The notes under the pieces: generated by a model
The model's input: the letters and a program-made list of their open reading frames with translations, nothing else
What the model was told of the DNA's origin: nothing
Database searches by the model: none
DNA from: a virus
Direction: 5' to 3' (one strand)
Virus record (IMG/VR): IMGVR_UViG_3300010885_049979
Location: 1 to 33,305 of that record
DNA length: 33,305 nucleotides
Shown here: piece by piece, positions 3,742-16,048 of the stretch
How the letters are laid out: the number at the start of each line of letters is the position of its first letter
Position numbering within the stretch: the stretch's first letter is position 1
Position numbers and translations under genes: made by a program

Positions 3742-6087
3742 TTAGTATACCGCTGTCCTGTTCATATACCTATCTAGAGAAGACCCTGAGTCAGCTCTAG
3801 GTGCTGCTCTCATTGGTACATACTTAGTTGTATCGCTATTAGATACACTATTAGATATAATAGGTGCTGCAGGTGCTGGTGCCTTAACAGCATCTCTCTC
3901 CATGTCTTTATTTTCAGTAGACAGCTTGTTAAGTTGGGTACCCGCATTTGGGCTTACACTAATGCTACTACCCATCGGATCAACATTTGATAAAGCTGGT
4001 ATTCCTGCGGTTTCTTTTTTACTTTGGCTAGTAAGAGAGTCAAAAGCTCCCTTAGCTATCCCTACTGCAGGTGATGCTTTACTAAGTACTCCTGATAGCT
4101 TACTACCAACACTTTCCCCACCCTTATCACTGCTAAAAAAGTTAGATATTGAATTACCAATACTTTTAGCTTTATCTCCTACATAACTACCGGCAGCACT
4201 AGCTACATTACTGACTGCACCAGCAGCATTGGATGCAGCATTACCTACCATACCGGCAGCATTTGAGGCTACTCCTCCAACCGTACTAGCAGCATTACTT
4301 ATTGCTTCACCAGCTTTATGAATACCTTGTGATGCAGTCTTTTCATCTAAGAGACCAAATGTAGCTCCAGAAGCAATACCACCTAGCGTGGAAGATACTT
4401 TTTGACCAGTAGTAGCGTCTTGTCCTTCTTTTAAATCAAAATTTTGATTTGTATTTTGATATCCTTCAAAACCACTGTATGCGGCCCCGGCTATAGCAGC
4501 CGCTGGTCCAAGAAACTTAGCGGCTTTGCCCAGACCTCCGAGAATTTTACTACCAATACCTTTACCTGCTTTACCTGCTGTACCTCCTCCACGACCATAA
4601 CTTAACAGATCTCCAGCTGTACTGGCAACATCTAGTAACCCGGGTCCTTTTTCTTCTGTAGGCGTAGCTGGTGAAACAGACGCCACAGGGGTTGCTAGAG
4701 CTGCTGGGGCAGGCTCTTTATGCTGACCAGGACCTGCAATTGGAGATTCTGTTTTACTAACTAATCCCCCAGCCACAGGGCTAGCTGTACTTTGACCAGC
4801 TGCTTTGTCTACTTTAGATCCTGGTGATACTGGTACCTTGGATTTAGATTCTATCTTAGTTTCTTTAGATCCCAGCGTTTTAGATTTAGATTCTACTTTA
4901 GATCCTGGTGATACTGGTACCTTGGATTTAGATTCTATCTTAGCTTCTTTAGATCCCAGCGTTTTAGATTTAGATTCTATCTTAGCTTCTTTAGATCCCA
5001 GCGTTTTAGATTCTATCTTAGCTTCTTTAGATCCTGGTGATACTGGTACCTTGGATTTAGATTCTATCTTAGCTTCTTTAGATCCTGGTGATACTGGTAC
5101 CTTGGATTTAGATTCTATCTTATCATTAAGATCATCTTCTTTCTTAGGCTCTAATGCAGTTTTTATAGCTTTAAGTTCTGCTAATTGTTCTTTTAATAAT
5201 GTTAATTGTTCTTTTGAATTTTCTAAATCAGTTTTAGCAGTATTAGTAGTTACTTCAGCGTTCTTAAATTCTTTATCTGCTTTAGGGTTAATACCCGTTA
5301 TCACTGCTTCTTTAGTAACAGGTTTTCTAGCTTTATCATCAGGAATCATTCCTGCATCCTTATGGATTTCTGTAAGCCCTTTCTCGGCTTTTTCTAATTC
5401 TTTTAAATCTTTTTTAAGTGGTTGAAATCCAGAATCTTTTTGTGCAGCAATCTTTTGCTCTAATACTTTTATTTCTTCTTCTTTTTTAATTATTTTTTCA
5501 AATAATTCACCGCCAACTTCTTTAGAACTCTTACCTTCTTTTTGAAATTGATTTCCTGTAGCAGATCTAGAATATGCTTCAACAAATTTAGTCTTAGCAT
5601 CTTCTTTTTTATCTACAGGTCCTGAGAAGAAAGCTTTAGTATTACTGAATCCTTCTTTAAGGCCTTGGCCGAAGTCTTTTAAGTTACCGAAACGAGGGCG
5701 TTCATTTTCTTTTTCTTGTTCTTTTAAATACGCTTCGCTTAATCGTTTAGGAGTAATAATACTCTTTGAATCTACTGCAGGCTTAGAGCCTTTAATTTTT
5801 GTATCTTTGTTTTTAGATTCATACTTACTATTTTGTTTTTCAGGATTAGCAATTAACTTTAACCCTGTAACAGCCTCGCGGACAGATACGACACTATTCT
5901 TAACTTCTTTAAGAGCTTTAATTATTTCATCAAGTTGTTTTTCACCCTTAATGCTTTCCTTATCAATATCTCTCTCAGCCTTTAATTGAAAAAGCTGCGT
6001 ACCGAGCTGAAGTTGATTCTGCTCATGTATTTTTTCTATCAGCCTAGTGAAAGTTTCACTACTCTTTGCTTGTATGTTATCTGCCAT
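3742..6087 (-). CDS. Large repeat-containing tail protein, tape-measure candidate
   Basis: A 781-residue protein encoded last in the leftward tail block. The N-terminal half is highly charged and helical (coiled-coil-like, residues about 1-320). Residues about 321-426 are tandem repeats built from KSKVPVSPGSK and EAKIES. Then come a Pro/Ala linker, a Gly/Ala-rich hydrophobic region (about 490-540, KFLGPAAAIAGAAYSGF) and an alanine-rich repeat segment (SNAASTVGGVASNAAG), ending SLDRYMNRTAVY. Long helical proteins with a Gly/Ala hydrophobic patch downstream of tail chaperone genes are usually tail-length tape measures (T4 gp29 has this job). Identity is inferred from length, composition and position; a different virion structural protein is possible. 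Confidence 0.6.
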   Translation of the reverse strand: MADNIQAKSSETFTRLIEKIHEQNQLQLGTQLFQLKAERDIDKESIKGEKQLDEIIKALKEVKNSVVSVREAVTGLKLIANPEKQNSKYESKNKDTKIKGSKPAVDSKSIITPKRLSEAYLKEQEKENERPRFGNLKDFGQGLKEGFSNTKAFFSGPVDKKEDAKTKFVEAYSRSATGNQFQKEGKSSKEVGGELFEKIIKKEEEIKVLEQKIAAQKDSGFQPLKKDLKELEKAEKGLTEIHKDAGMIPDDKARKPVTKEAVITGINPKADKEFKNAEVTTNTAKTDLENSKEQLTLLKEQLAELKAIKTALEPKKEDDLNDKIESKSKVPVSPGSKEAKIESKSKVPVSPGSKEAKIESKTLGSKEAKIESKSKTLGSKEAKIESKSKVPVSPGSKVESKSKTLGSKETKIESKSKVPVSPGSKVDKAAGQSTASPVAGGLVSKTESPIAGPGQHKEPAPAALATPVASVSPATPTEEKGPGLLDVASTAGDLLSYGRGGGTAGKAGKGIGSKILGGLGKAAKFLGPAAAIAGAAYSGFEGYQNTNQNFDLKEGQDATTGQKVSSTLGGIASGATFGLLDEKTASQGIHKAGEAISNAASTVGGVASNAAGMVGNAASNAAGAVSNVASAAGSYVGDKAKSIGNSISNFFSSDKGGESVGSKLSGVLSKASPAVGIAKGAFDSLTSQSKKETAGIPALSNVDPMGSSISVSPNAGTQLNKLSTENKDMERDAVKAPAPAAPIISNSVSNSDTTKYVPMRAAPRADSGSSLDRYMNRTAVY
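4811..5125 (-). repeat. Tandem repeats inside the tape-measure candidate gene
   Basis: About 315 bp made of two alternating in-frame units, one coding KSKVPVSPGSKEAKIES and a shorter one coding KTLGSKEAKIES. Copies are nearly identical at DNA level, with TTTAGATCCTGG and GATTTAGATTCTATC recurring on the + strand. Such identical in-frame copies can expand or contract by slippage or recombination. Confidence 0.9.
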
Positions 6088-6088
6088 T

Positions 6089-6715
6089 TTAGTTATTGAT
6101 TATCGGCTTGATAATTGGTTTTCTTACTACAGTAGTAGTTGCTGGGTTGACGACAGGTTGACCTGGATCTCCGAATCCAGAAGTAGCTGTTGTTGGGGAC
6201 CCAAATCCGGTATTTGTTGCTGGAGAATTAAACCCGGGATTGGATGCTGGGGTACTAAAGTTACTGGGGGAGTTGAATCCAGCTGATGACGGAGAGCTAA
6301 ATGTTGTTGAGCTGCTTGTTGGTGAATTGAATCCGCCATTATTACCTCCGAAATTATTATTAGGTTGATTACTTACGTTAACTGTATTCTGTGATCCTGG
6401 AGGAACATATGTAGTACCTGCATTAGCAGGGAATTGCATACCACCAGATTCTGCACCATTTATTTTTTCTTGAGTACGACCATGAGCAGCAATACCCAGT
6501 ACAGCACCCATGGCGAGGTGAAACAGCCCGGCTCCTTGCAAAGTTAGAGGTTGCCATTGACTAGTAACTTGCCCGTGAAATATAGACTGAAGTAAGCTCC
6601 AAAAAACCGGAAAAAGGACAAAATCAAATATACATACCCCCATGTACATCCATCCCATGGCTGGTCGCCATTTCTTTTGCATCCAATCTTCTGGTTCTTT
6701 TTTATGTTTTGTCAT
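6089..6715 (-). CDS. Membrane protein with Gly-Phe-rich C-terminal tail (holin-like domain)
   Basis: A 208-residue protein. Residues about 1-80 hold a cytoplasmic basic start (KHKKEPEDWMQKKWRP) and likely two membrane helices (MGWMYMGVCIFDFVLFPVFW and GAGLFHLAMGAVLGIAAHGR), followed by TQEK. This WRP...G...R..EK layout resembles phage holins of the three-helix, gene-transfer-agent type, though the similarity is by eye. Residues about 95-190 are low-complexity Gly/Asn/Ser/Thr/Pro with three GFNSP motifs plus GFGSP and GFGDP. It ends with a basic segment (VVRKPIIKPIINN). It starts inside the stop of the upstream frame (ATGA at 6715) and sits between the gp26 fusion and the tape-measure candidate, so a tail-assembly or lysis role is possible. 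Confidence 0.65.
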   Translation of the reverse strand: MTKHKKEPEDWMQKKWRPAMGWMYMGVCIFDFVLFPVFWSLLQSIFHGQVTSQWQPLTLQGAGLFHLAMGAVLGIAAHGRTQEKINGAESGGMQFPANAGTTYVPPGSQNTVNVSNQPNNNFGGNNGGFNSPTSSSTTFSSPSSAGFNSPSNFSTPASNPGFNSPATNTGFGSPTTATSGFGDPGQPVVNPATTTVVRKPIIKPIINN

Positions 6716-6912
6716 TGGTTCCTCGCGTTTTGCTTTAATATTTTTAGTTTTTCATTCTCTTCTTTTATATGATTAAGCAATAATGTAACGTAGACTTCCC
6801 TTTCCCAAGGCATCATATCTTCTAATTCAGTAAGACTATATTTGTGATGTTGCATTAAGGAAAAATTAAGATTAAAATAATTTATTAAGTTTTCTTGCGA
6901 AAGGGTTAGACG
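6712..6912 (-). CDS. C-terminal extension of gp26 reached by -1 frameshift (tail chaperone-like)
   Basis: An open frame of 66 codons from 6912 to the TGA at 6714-6712, in the -1 frame relative to gp26. It reads RLTLSQENLINYFNLNF, then SLMQHHKYSLTELEDMMPWE and REVYVTLLLNHIKEENEKLK. The section before the first ATG (6855, MQHHKY) has no ATG, GTG or TTG start and ATG 6855 lacks a ribosome binding site. Yet the NLINYFNLNFSLMQHHKYSL stretch reads as one continuous helical protein. It is therefore most likely made as a gp26 fusion of 296 residues through the heptamer at 6912-6918. T4 has gene 51 after gene 26, but T4 gp51 is considerably longer as I remember it, so homology is not claimed. A short product from ATG 6855 (47 residues) is the alternative. 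Confidence 0.7.
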   Translation of the reverse strand, partial: RLTLSQENLINYFNLNFSLMQHHKYSLTELEDMMPWEREVYVTLLLNHIKEENEKLKILKQNARNQ

Positions 6913-7601
6913 AAAAAATTGTGTAGCCCTTCAATTCTTGAAATATTGTGTTTACCACACTTAGGGCAATCGCACTCCACTGTCTGCACAACCTTAGGAG
7001 CAGTAACAAAGAATTCTTCAATTTTATCGAATTGTTCTTTAGTTAAAGATTGAATAAACTCGTTAATTTCTTCTTTAGTTTGATCAGCTGCTTCCCAATA
7101 ATTTTCATTATCGAAGATACCTTTAACGCAGTCTACAACCATATCCACAATATCATCGGACTTATCAGATGACGATAGAAGAATAACATCTCGTATGCTA
7201 GGATATTTCATTTCGATACCAACATCATCGTTAATCATAATTTTGTTTGTATGGCCTTCTTTTTTCTCTACAACAATATTATCAATGCTAAAACTGGTAT
7301 TAATCTTTTCTTCACACTCACATGTAACAATAACCTCTACCGTTTCACCAATTGACTTTGCGCGAAGGTTCATAAAGATATATTCGATATCAAAATGAGG
7401 TAGGTTCTGAGTATTAAGTTCTTTAAATGTACAAACATCTACAAGATCTCTAATAATTCTAGAAACTTCCTCATCATCTGCCTCAGACATAGTTAAAAGA
7501 ATTTTATGCTCTCTAACTAAGAAAGGTCTATACTTAATTTTTAAGCCAGTAGATGGTAAAATCAATTCATATGTGGGGGTGGTTAATTTTGGTAAAGACA
7601 T
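6906..7601 (-). CDS. 26: Baseplate hub protein or chaperone, T4 gp26-like
   Basis: A 231-residue protein; T4 gp26 has 208 residues and is needed for baseplate hub assembly. Family features are the N-terminal KIKYRPFLVREHKILLTMSE, the segment LPHFDIEYIFMNLRAKSIGE (residues about 67-86) and a C-terminal cysteine knuckle. Cys94 and Cys96 (TCECEE) together with Cys210, Cys212 and Cys215 (ECDCPKCGKH) could form a zinc site. A good TAGGAG precedes ATG 7601. The last codons before TAA are AAT TTT TTC GTC, containing a -1 slippery heptamer in the correct phase, so a longer fusion product is likely. It lies between the tube-fold protein and the tail membrane protein. Confidence 0.85.
   Translation of the reverse strand: MSLPKLTTPTYELILPSTGLKIKYRPFLVREHKILLTMSEADDEEVSRIIRDLVDVCTFKELNTQNLPHFDIEYIFMNLRAKSIGETVEVIVTCECEEKINTSFSIDNIVVEKKEGHTNKIMINDDVGIEMKYPSIRDVILLSSSDKSDDIVDMVVDCVKGIFDNENYWEAADQTKEEINEFIQSLTKEQFDKIEEFFVTAPKVVQTVECDCPKCGKHNISRIEGLHNFFV
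6912..6918 (-). other. Slippery heptamer T TTT TTC for -1 frameshifting
   Basis: On the minus strand the sequence reads T TTT TTC with codon phase X XXY YYZ exactly as required (AAT TTT TTC GTC TAA). After slippage the next codons are CGT CTA ACC CTT TCG CAA, which stay open for 66 codons. The zero-frame stop comes one codon after the heptamer. An SD-like GAAGGG lies about 10 nt upstream, where such elements stimulate frameshifting. No strong downstream hairpin is apparent. Confidence 0.75.
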
Positions 7602-7619
7602 AATAACTCCTATAATATA

Positions 7620-8330
7620 TTAAAAGCGTCCAATAAAATTACCAAGTTCATCGTAATGATCCTCAGCGGTGTTGTTGTTATCAACTGTGTAATTTCTGAT
7701 GATAGTTGGATCATCTAATCTAATATCTTCTCTAGCAATATCAGGAAACTGAATCTGTTCAGGAATATCGGTTGGCGTTGTCCCTTCCGTTCTTCTCCAG
7801 TACCTGTACGCAAATACAACATTAAGTCTATGTGTTTGATTTTGACTAGAGTTGTTTAGTTCCATGGGGTTTAGATTTCTCGGAAACGCTTCCAGAAGTT
7901 CTATTTCATACGTAATGTTATCTTGTTCGTCGAGTTGAGAAATTGTAATAGTTGTTGCATATGTGTCTTGATAACTTACGGTAAAGTTATTTTTATCTAC
8001 AATAGTATGCATCCAATCTTCAAAAAACGTCTTAACTCTCATGTTCCTATCTACGTGGAAGTTAAGAGATATTCCTTCACCACCATACTCAATACCCATC
8101 GGTCTTTGATATGTTGGTCCAAATATTTTAAAAGATTTAGAAGAGATATTAAGGCCCGGTAGTATAGCTTGCTCGCAATATAGGCTAATCAGGGTTGGAT
8201 CATACGCGCTCCCACCTCGACTTAGACTTTGTGGAGTAACTATTTTAACTTCAAACCTGTTCGTTCTAGCCAGGCCACCACTAAGAACTGTGTCTCTAAA
8301 CTTATCGAGACTGAATGTTGCATTTGCCAT
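7620..8330 (-). CDS. 54: Tail-tube-fold protein, probable T4 gp54-type tube initiator
   Basis: A 236-residue protein with the tail-tube layout: N-terminal FRDTVLSGGLARTNRFEVKI, then LISLYCEQAILPGLNIS, the GPTYQRPMGIEYGG segment, a strand-rich middle (LNFHVDRNMRVKTFFEDWMH) and HRLNVVFAYRYWRR. This resembles gp19 tail tube and gp54, the baseplate protein that starts tube polymerisation on gp48. The neighbourhood of gp48 and gp26 and the absence of a sheath gene favour gp54, though T4 gp54 is longer (320 residues). AAGGA precedes ATG 8330. The C-terminal 40 residues are acidic and Asn-rich (RNYTVDNNNTAEDHYDE). A tail tube gp19 elsewhere in the genome would settle the choice. Confidence 0.6.
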   Translation of the reverse strand: MANATFSLDKFRDTVLSGGLARTNRFEVKIVTPQSLSRGGSAYDPTLISLYCEQAILPGLNISSKSFKIFGPTYQRPMGIEYGGEGISLNFHVDRNMRVKTFFEDWMHTIVDKNNFTVSYQDTYATTITISQLDEQDNITYEIELLEAFPRNLNPMELNNSSQNQTHRLNVVFAYRYWRRTEGTTPTDIPEQIQFPDIAREDIRLDDPTIIRNYTVDNNNTAEDHYDELGNFIGRF

Positions 8331-12567: not shown

Positions 12568-13658
12568 TGCAAAAAATATTTAACAAAGATGGATTTAATT
12601 GGTGGATTGGTGTTGTAGAAGACCGCATGGATCCTGAGAAGCTTGGTCGTTGTAGAGTTCGTATATTTGGATATCATACTGATAGTAAGGAGCTTTTACC
12701 TACAAAAGATCTACCCTGGGCAACACCCATACAGCCAATAACATCTGCTGCTATTTCAGGGCTAGGATCATCTCCTCTTGGTCCTGTCGAAGGTACTTGG
12801 GTAATAGGATTTTTTCTTGATGGCGATGACATGCAACAGCCAGCTATGTTTGGTACGATTGCTACCAAGGCTGCTACCCTTGCATTCACCGCGCCCTCTA
12901 TAGATAAACCAGCTATCTCAAATCCAACAGGAGAAGAGGTTACAGATACAACTACCGGTAAACCTGTAACTGATACAGCAGGGAATCCTATAAAAGTTAC
13001 ATCCCCTTCTGTACCTGATTGGGAGCTTGGTAAAACGTCTGAGCAGTATGAATCTGGCGGCAAGGGCCCGGGGACAATAAATGATTATGAAGGGGCAGCA
13101 GCAGGGGATTATGGTGGTGCATCTTATGGTACCTACCAATTTGCATCCTATCTGCCTCCTATAATGAAAGGCGGTAAGTCTAGACCGTCTTCTAAAAATT
13201 CTCCTGTCTTGCAGTACATTTCTAATTCTAAGTTTAAAGATAAGTTTGTAGGGCTAGACCCTGCTACCGCTGCCTTTGATAGTAAATGGGGTGAAGTTGC
13301 CTCAACTAACAAAGATGAATTTAAAGCCGACCAGCATGACTATATTAAAAGAAAATACTATGATGTTCTAACAGCTAACTTACAGCGCGCTGGGTTAGAT
13401 TTATCTAAGTATGGTCCTGCAGTACAAGATCTAGTTTGGTCTACTGCTGTGCAGTTCGGACCTGCGAAGACTAAGGTGTTTACATCTGCCCTCAAAGGTA
13501 AGTCAGAGTTAACGGATAAAGATGTTGTAACAATTGTTAGTGACTATAAGATTTCCAATGTGGACGAATTCTTTGCATCAAGCTCTCAAGAAATAAAAAA
13601 TAGTGTTAAAAGCAGGTATCAAAGTGAAAAAACAGCATTACTAGGAATGATAAAATAA
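12567..13658 (+). CDS. 5: Baseplate hub lysozyme, T4 gp5-type OB domain plus glycosidase domain
   Basis: A 363-residue protein. Residues 1-115 are the gp5 OB-fold domain (WWIGVVEDRMDPEKLGRCRV, RIFGYHT, LPWATPI, GTWVIGFFLDGDDMQQPAMF GTI). A Thr/Pro-rich linker follows. Residues about 155-363 hold a muramidase-like domain beginning YESGGKGPGTI with Glu162 as likely catalytic acid, then Asp181 in GDYGGASYGTYQF. This GH-type domain occurs in VgrG and cyanophage gp5 proteins, rather than the T4-lysozyme domain of T4 gp5. The beta-helix needle that T4 gp5 carries is not present here and is found in the next gene. The gene starts in the stop of the hub gene (TAATG). Confidence 0.8.
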   Translation: MQKIFNKDGFNWWIGVVEDRMDPEKLGRCRVRIFGYHTDSKELLPTKDLPWATPIQPITSAAISGLGSSPLGPVEGTWVIGFFLDGDDMQQPAMFGTIATKAATLAFTAPSIDKPAISNPTGEEVTDTTTGKPVTDTAGNPIKVTSPSVPDWELGKTSEQYESGGKGPGTINDYEGAAAGDYGGASYGTYQFASYLPPIMKGGKSRPSSKNSPVLQYISNSKFKDKFVGLDPATAAFDSKWGEVASTNKDEFKADQHDYIKRKYYDVLTANLQRAGLDLSKYGPAVQDLVWSTAVQFGPAKTKVFTSALKGKSELTDKDVVTIVSDYKISNVDEFFASSSQEIKNSVKSRYQSEKTALLGMIK

Positions 13659-16048
13659 TGAATGATTTAACATCTACCGTTCAGGCTGGGTTACAGATAG
13701 CATTACTTTCCCAGGTAAGAGCCCTCAACCTCGGGGTAAGCGATACAGTACTTCAAGGAATTGTATCTAGAGTAGCCGCTCAGACAGCCACGGATACAAC
13801 TCAGCAGGTGCATGCAGAGGCAAATAATCAATTAAATGTAATTCCAAGAAATTTAATTGGGGTTAATAACCCTGTCAACTTAGTATCGCAAAATCTTAGC
13901 CCTAGGGGGTTAACCAGTACTCTTACAAATCCATTGCAGACTCAACTTACACCAGGTCTAACTAGTAGTTTGATTACAAGTCTGCAAAACGAATTAACTA
14001 GATCTCTACCCCCAGATAAATTAAAACTAATTAACTTTGCAAATTTTTCAACGTCGCTGAACAGTAGTCTAACACCGACTGTCAATGGTAGTGTTACAAC
14101 GGCATTGTCTGGATTTTCTAACTCGTTATTTAATAACAGTATACCACAGGTACCGGTCTTACAAAATGTTGCCGGGCTTTTTGGATCCTTAAGCCCTACC
14201 CAAGCTCTCGATGCAGTAGATAATCAGTTTGTAAGCTCAACAGCTAGTAAGTATCTTACCCAGGCTAAAACTTTCGATGTAAATTCCAATGAAAATCAAG
14301 AGAAATTAATTGTAACTAAAGTGGGATTTACGGATCCAAATGCAAATTATCCTACCAAGGAATACGCTGGTGGATCAGAGACTAATAAACTAGCTCAGGG
14401 GGACGTGAAGGGTACAATCGTACAGAAGAAAAATTCTAGTAGAATGACAGGTGCTAAGTTACCTGGTGGTACTGCCTGGGATCAGCCAGAGTCAGCTTTT
14501 AAAGGCCAGTACCCGTACAACAAAGTTACACAGACTGAATCTGGGCATATTATTGAAGTGGATGATACACCAGGTGCTGAACGTCTACACATCTATCATA
14601 CATCAGGTACATTTATAGAAATAGATTCAAATGGTTCTATGGTTAGGAGAACTGTAGGATCATCTTATGAAATTATAGATAGAAATGGTAAGATTTCTAT
14701 TGCTGGTAAAGCCGATATTTCTATTAATGGTGCTTGTAACATTTATGTCGGTAATGATGCTAGCATTGAGGTGGAGGGGGATGTTAATTTAACCTGCCAT
14801 AATGATATTACAGCCCAGGCTGGAGGTACGCTGAATCTTTAAGCTACGGAGGAAGTTAATATAACCGGTGGCAGCGTTAACATACAGGCGTTTGAATATG
14901 CAAATATAACATCTAATGTTCAGTTGAATCTGCATGCAACTTCTGATATTAACATACTAGCAAATGCAAGTATATTTGTGGAAGCTGTCGATGTATATAC
15001 TGCTGCAACTACAGTTTATAATCAGGCAGATGATTTCTATCATAAAGCTAATGTAAGTGTATATACTGAGGCAGATACAGATATAAATCAAAAGGCGGGT
15101 GGCGATATAAAAACTCAAGCTGCTGGTGTGATTAGCAACAAAGCAGCAGGAGATGTAAAAACTCAAGCTGGTGGGGCAATTAGTAATAAGGCATCAGGAA
15201 ACTTTGCTGCAGATGGCAGTGCTGTACATCTTAATTCTGGTTATTCATCTGACTCGGTTAGTGCTGAAGCTTCTAAAGAAAGTTTGCCTGCAGAACTTGC
15301 AGGGGTCTCTAACATTGGTGTTCTATCTGGACGCAGTGATCCTCAATATATTGATCTTGTAGATCCAACTGCCTTGACCCTTGCAGATGCCCATTCAGTG
15401 TTAATGGAAGAAGCTACGCATACAGAAGAAGAATATAAAGCTCATCGTGATTTAATTATTACATCTGGTTTTGCAACTGCTACAGGATTTGGTGCCGCTC
15501 CTATTGTTATTGAGAGCGAATCTGTTCAATCGACACAGAGCATAGTTGTACCTCCTGCCGACAGCCTGAAATCAGTGAAAGAACTTCCGGGTAATTATAA
15601 ACTATCTCCAAATTTTACATTGGAAATGTTATCCAGTAAGGCAGCACTAACTAAAGACTTTATTGAAGCATCTGAAAAGTTATCGTATGGTGAGATTGTT
15701 TACAATTTACAAGCCGTAGCTTTAAACGTACTTGAGCCTTTATACAATCTATATCCAAATCTAATTATAACCTCAGCGTATCGTAAACCATCTAAATCGA
15801 TTGGTACTTCTCAACATCCGCTAGGTCAAGCGGTAGACTGTCAGTTTAAGGGTATATCTAAATCAGAATATTATACAATAGCTACTAAGTTGGCCAAAGT
15901 ACTAAGCTACGATCAAATGTTGTTGGAGTATTGCAATTATACTAATAATCCTTGGATTCATATTTCCTTTACGCTTAATAATAGAAATCAAGTCTCGACA
16001 TTCTTTAATCATGCCAAGCATTCTGATGGTCTAACTAATCTAGCATAA
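13658..16048 (+). pseudogene. Central spike protein with beta-helix and M15 peptidase domain, interrupted by one in-frame TAA
   Basis: Read through, this is a 796-position frame with TAA at codon 395 (14840-14842). Residues 1-250 are helical and low-complexity (LQIALLSQVRALNLGVSD). Residues about 270-395 start a gp5-C-like beta-helix (SGHIIEVDDTPGAERLHIYH, GTFIEIDSNGSMVRR, ISIAGKADISING). The helix continues without a break after the stop (EEVNITGGSVNI, then repeats GGDIKTQAAGVISNKAAGDV). The C-terminal 150 residues are an M15 peptidase domain with zinc ligands His720 and Asp727 (SQHPLGQAVD) and His768 (WIHIS). The TAA would be one C-to-T change from CAA (Gln). A truncated 394-residue product would lack the peptidase. 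No good start codon lies just after the stop (TTG 14924 at best), so the causes are mutation, sequence error or readthrough. Confidence 0.75.

Follow-up and report, generated by a model that had tools for sequence, protein, structure and literature searches.

The closest described counterparts of the locus analysed here are the tail-assembly chaperone genes of T4-like phages. In the abstract of Vladimirov, Gautam and Davidson (Virology 2022, 566:9-15), genes 26 and 51 of T4 are reportedly identified as the short and long forms, and the frameshift is said to be conserved in several T4-like groups. Other papers credit Vladimirov et al. (2022) with poly-T signals for -1 frameshifting in the short-form genes of T4-like phages (PMC12846349), and with T4-like phages in which the long fusion has a gene of its own in addition to the short one (PMC10274946). 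Both gp26 and gp51 of T4 are listed as hub-assembly chaperones, and in 2010 gp51 was described as an essential protein that has no known function and is missing from the virion (PMC3004832). Frameshifting by -1 at a poly-T signal, which lies at the 3' end of the short-form gene and is followed by an open -1 frame, is also described in the Vandenendeviridae and Andersonviridae, where the region of the extension is routinely left intergenic or hypothetical (PMC12846349). In phage lambda, the short form gpG and its -1 frameshifted long form gpGT are encoded between the genes for the major tail protein and the tape measure protein, and neither product is found in the virion (PMC5009743).

The window analysed here is a contig of 33,305 bases from an uncultivated IMG/VR virus, not itself described before. 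On its minus strand lies a gene (6906..7601) for a protein of 231 aa that carries the domain of the T4 gp26/gp51 family (PF12322 T4_baseplate in Pfam, E 8e-64; phrog_150, E 8e-66), and this gp26 would be the short chaperone form (TAC-N). An earlier, sequence-only reading of the window had proposed that a programmed -1 frameshift fuses it to a 66-codon extension. The 3' end of the gene reads ...CAC AAT TTT TTC GTC TAA, and the slippery heptamer T TTT TTC (6912..6918, minus strand) is indeed phased exactly as X XXY YYZ and lies one codon ahead of the TAA stop (6906..6908). From the heptamer onward (after FF), the -1 frame is uninterrupted as far as a TGA at 6714-6712; base 6912 is reused by its first codon, CGT, and the 66 open codons of the extension (6712..6911, minus strand), a putative gp51-like C-terminal domain (TAC-C), bring the translated fusion to the 296 residues that had been predicted. 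The locus thus has the plan of TAC loci, in which an extension in the -1 frame overlaps or adjoins the end of a short ORF. Judged from the comparative sequence data below, it is very probable that one gene specifies both a short and a long tail-assembly chaperone by way of programmed -1 frameshifting.

The likeness to lambda gpG/gpGT, which the sequence-only reading had already drawn, lies in a short form accompanied by a -1 frameshifted long form; the two systems are compared by arrangement and not by sequence, and the comparative evidence favours the parallel. The slippery site of lambda is a G/A heptamer, and in the window, unlike lambda, a holin-like ORF comes between extension and tape-measure candidate. 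The Vandenendeviridae and Andersonviridae belong to a different lineage and are likewise comparable by arrangement, their motif being GTTTTT against TTTTTTC here. With the T4-like chaperones, as their treatment by Vladimirov et al. (2022) is relayed by the sources quoted above, the locus shares both gene family and arrangement, and no essential difference is apparent. The sequence-only reading knew of no described frameshift at gp26 in T4-like phages; the arrangement is credited to that paper. Since, by the same accounts, the chaperone genes of T4-like phages had been identified there, the present finding is right in substance but not new: it is a new, well-supported instance of a known arrangement rather than a discovery. 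The support added here consists of counts over 162 loci, statistics of the heptamer and codon controls that include T4-type genes; a candidate Shine-Dalgarno-like (SD-like) element is described as well.

The conserved part of the extension is well recognized. From NLINYF onward it matches phrog_634 (E 5e-24), the 'baseplate hub assembly catalyst' family (gp51), and as a tblastn query the extension retrieved 478 phage records, mostly of cyanophages. In relatives, this domain is annotated under the name gp51, "baseplate hub assembly catalyst". Upstream of the NFxL motif, as far back as the gp26 stop, the -1 frame contains stop codons in none of 144 loci, against 96 and 139 loci for the other frames, and in comparisons of close pairs 66% of single-base codon differences are synonymous in the -1 frame versus 10% and 18% in the others. 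These figures support a coding -1 frame, and the comparison of loci indicates selection on the extension as protein from the slip site onward, with no conserved start of its own. The real product of the so-called gp51 extension is very likely the long form of the tail-assembly chaperone, and this reading mends an annotation error across hundreds of cyanophage records, which either show the extension as a gene in its own right ('baseplate hub assembly catalyst') or leave it unannotated.

Conservation of the heptamer was examined first in nine relatives, all of which carry it in phase, and then, after the addition of 160 IMG/VR loci, in a set of 162 non-identical loci. A T TTT TTN sequence is present in phase at the end of gp26 in 162/162, always with the extension in the -1 frame, so the alignment across relatives that had been suggested as a check on the frameshift came out in its favour. 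The commonest variant is TTTTTTC (127 loci), followed by TTTTTTT (22) and TTTTTTA (13), and in 158/162 the gp26 stop lies 0-1 codon past the heptamer. One apparent exception (L059) was an artefact of the profile anchor; read by eye, its DNA is AGT TTT TTC GGC TAA. In a diverged subset of 89 representatives (<70% protein identity), the six T positions are invariant at 2.0 bits each, including two third positions that are synonymous in gp26, and neighbouring gp26 third positions vary. A further hallmark of TAC loci is that relatives share an in-phase X XXY YYZ slippery site close to the stop of the short form, and here both the site and its phase are well supported at the level of sequence.

In T4 the corresponding proteins are encoded by two separate, divergently oriented genes, gp26 being homologous to the short form described here and gp51 to the long form, and T4 gp26 lacks the heptamer, whereas the window has one gene with it. 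The whole of T4 gp51 aligns with the gp26 family (PF12322, E 4e-52; phrog_150, residues 3-248), and its C-terminus matches phrog_634. When the deduced fusions were compared with the gp51 profile (hhalign), the alignment ran straight through the junction (E 4e-18), and each half alone was also significant (gp26 part, 5e-11; extension, 9e-8), which supports homology of the extension with the C-terminal part of T4 gp51, and colinearity across the junction. As the match is unbroken over the junction and significant on both sides, T4 would encode the long form in frame, in a gene of its own, and by these profile matches T4 gp51 is evidently a gp26 paralogue carrying the extension in frame. This supports T4 gp51 as a long chaperone form, in agreement with the 2022 paper as far as its content is quoted above. 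AlphaFold models are in keeping with this: that of the window gp26 (pLDDT 93.8) ends where a helix begins, and that of a T4-type gp51 (pLDDT 84.4) continues into a bundle of helices. Searches for solved-structure relatives of the window gp26 gave none that was significant by sequence or fold, the comparison of its model with the HK97 tail assembly chaperone 2ob9 giving an E value of 3.9 and a probability of 0.11. In one T4-like contig (L189), the gp51 gene (1501-2246) has 16 stops in the given frame, which suggests a frame disruption or a sequence error.

Separate initiation and transcriptional slippage are both weaker explanations of these data than a programmed frameshift. If the extension were an independent small protein, gp51, it would need its own start or re-initiation after the gp26 stop, and public records of many relatives do annotate a separate small gene. 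In the window, the first ATG of the -1 frame is at 6855, and in some relatives an ATG lies nearer the stop. However, the ATG at 6855 is located 3' of NLINYFNLNFSL, and the conserved first part of the extension lies upstream of it; no ATG, GTG or TTG precedes it in the frame, in line with the sequence-only reading, which saw no plausible start codon for that part. An own start with a ribosome binding site in relatives had been named there as evidence that would speak against frameshifting. An ATG does occur in the first part of the extension in some relatives (e.g., P-SSM2) but its position is not conserved, and in 51/162 loci ATG, GTG and TTG are wholly absent from the stretch that leads from the gp26 stop to the NFxL motif. 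Across the annotated relatives that were fetched, the conserved extension lies at a near-constant distance from the gp26 stop, while the annotated gp51 starts differ between phages (locus positions 1489, 1522, 1534, 1537 and 1576) against a fixed start of the match, a scatter to be expected if annotators seek a start that does not exist. Given that independent initiation explains neither the invariant phase of the T6 run nor the in-frame fusion in T4 gp51, we regard it as quite improbable. Slippage of RNA polymerase on the T run, with loss or gain of an mRNA base, would lead to the same fusion, and 6-7 consecutive Ts are present in every locus. Six Ts are, however, short for efficient slippage, and 140/162 loci have only six; moreover, polymerase slippage does not depend on the X XXY YYZ phase and would leave its invariance unexplained. 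We take this mechanism to be a shade less likely still.

It could also be argued that the extension is fortuitous and that the heptamer simply reflects a conserved Phe-Phe pair in T-rich genomes as a by-product, since gp26 keeps its FF and about 75% of Phe codons are TTT. Under a codon-usage null, the probability of NNT followed by TTT in all 89 representatives is log10 P = -28.8 with loci treated as independent; because the loci are related, a P of ~10^-29 is an overstatement, but the null is rejected. Other FF pairs within the same genes match the heptamer pattern in 3/87 only, a control that is rough as the preceding residue differs. The T4-type genes provide another control: the in-phase heptamer is found in 0/9 of the gp26 genes with a readable end that adjoin a separate gp51. 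These nine mostly end in the same EFF, with the codons TTC TTT in most and otherwise non-slippery codons, so that the same FF encoded in a non-slippery way counts against the by-product reading. The extension, for its part, is a named conserved family under protein-level selection. A chance origin of the heptamer thus appears contradicted by the comparative data, and we give it a vanishingly small probability. The programmed -1 frameshift put forward by the sequence-only reading is favoured instead by the invariant phase of the heptamer, selection on the -1 frame, the lack of a conserved start and the in-frame version in T4 gp51.

For the programmed frameshift, we infer a slippage event of low rate, in which most ribosomes would terminate at 6908-6906, leaving the short form of 231 aa. 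A minority would slip back by one base with tRNA-Phe anticodons on TTT TTC in the P and A sites, re-pairing from T TTT TTC to TTT TTT C, and would then read 66 further codons, so that the long form, of 296 aa, would carry a helical domain at its C-terminus, the part named gp51 in relatives. If lambda gpG/gpGT is a guide, the tape-measure protein may be coated by many short and few long copies, and the C-terminal domain may recruit tail-tube subunits.

A candidate upstream stimulator is the SD-like GAAGGG (6928..6933, minus strand), identified by pairing with the anti-SD sequence, which ends 9 nt ahead of the heptamer. Over the 89 loci, positions -15 to -10, counted from the heptamer, pair best with the anti-SD (mean -6.0 kcal/mol), and an SD-like element at such upstream spacing stimulates the shift in E. 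coli dnaX. The stretch overlaps a conserved Glu-Gly, and it may encode these residues rather than act as a stimulator. Folding of the sequence downstream of the heptamer against codon shuffles gave a mean z of about -1.5. A conserved downstream stimulatory hairpin was rejected: in no register was pairing conserved beyond the amino-acid constraint, and a strong hairpin occurs in ~10/89 loci. A stem spanning the heptamer (GAGGG with CCCTC) showed no consistent excess of pairing. Four loci (L016, L043, L060 and L067) have a strong, compact hairpin 6-7 nt past the heptamer (about 13-31 nt after its start), which most relatives lack; it is plausible as a lineage-specific stimulator.

The in-phase T run with a -1 extension extends to more diverged T4-like phages, namely Vibrio KVP40 and Va3, Cronobacter S13, Aeromonas Ah1, Stenotrophomonas BUCT608, Sinorhizobium phiN3, Pseudomonas pf16 and Synechococcus Sf-FS3, and KVP40, S13, Ah1 and Va3 are Straboviridae carrying the same heptamer class. 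An alignment-based search for diverged extensions found no stretch that was conserved enough. In gp26 genes of the Ackermannviridae type the heptamer is absent, and the extension is still in the -1 frame. Loss of the heptamer with both frames kept had been expected not to occur if frameshifting was used; this holds for the 162 close loci and the diverged T4-like phages listed above, but not for this distant group. Some of its members (K444, YC, K445 and Dickeya PP35; L177 2124, L197 1311, L198 1323 and L199 1401) have a TAATG stop/start overlap leading into the frame of the extension, and others (CBA120, Kuja and phiA8-29; L196, L178 and L175) have neither the heptamer nor an overlapping ATG. 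The TAATG overlap could reflect translational coupling or a non-standard slip. A tentative, and rather doubtful, generalization is that the gp26/gp51 pair has taken three lineage-specific routes to a long or second product: a -1 frameshift at T6 in Kyanoviridae and many other T4-like phages, an in-frame duplicate (gp51) in T4-type phages, and loss of the heptamer in the Ackermannviridae type, several with TAATG.

All genes around the locus described here are on the minus strand. Directly upstream of gp26 is a gene for a tail-tube-like protein (7620..8330; phrog_45 tail tube, E 6e-39). Downstream of the extension is a 208-aa ORF (6089..6715) with a holin-like N-terminal part (PF11351 GTA_holin_3TM, E 8e-6; phrog_3427 holin, E 9e-9), the start of which overlaps the stop of the extension (ATGA), followed by a 781-aa tape-measure candidate (3742..6087) that matches phrog_1535 (tail length tape measure) weakly, at E 6e-4. 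The position of the extension upstream of the tape-measure candidate, as given in the sequence-only reading, is therefore correct in order, but the 208-codon holin-like ORF (6715-6089) intervenes and the tape-measure assignment is weak. The candidate contains 42/84-nt tandem repeats (KIESKSKTLGSKEA-type) at 4808-5117, possibly a length-variable region. Elsewhere in the window, on the plus strand, a gene for a gp5-like tail lysozyme/hub protein (13658-16048) is cut by a single in-frame TAA (14841-14843 region). The two resulting ORFs (13658-14842 and 14924-16048) both match phrog_430 and are in the same frame (GGTLNL*ATEEVNITGG), and the interruption may stem from a sequencing error or represent a real split or a case of readthrough.
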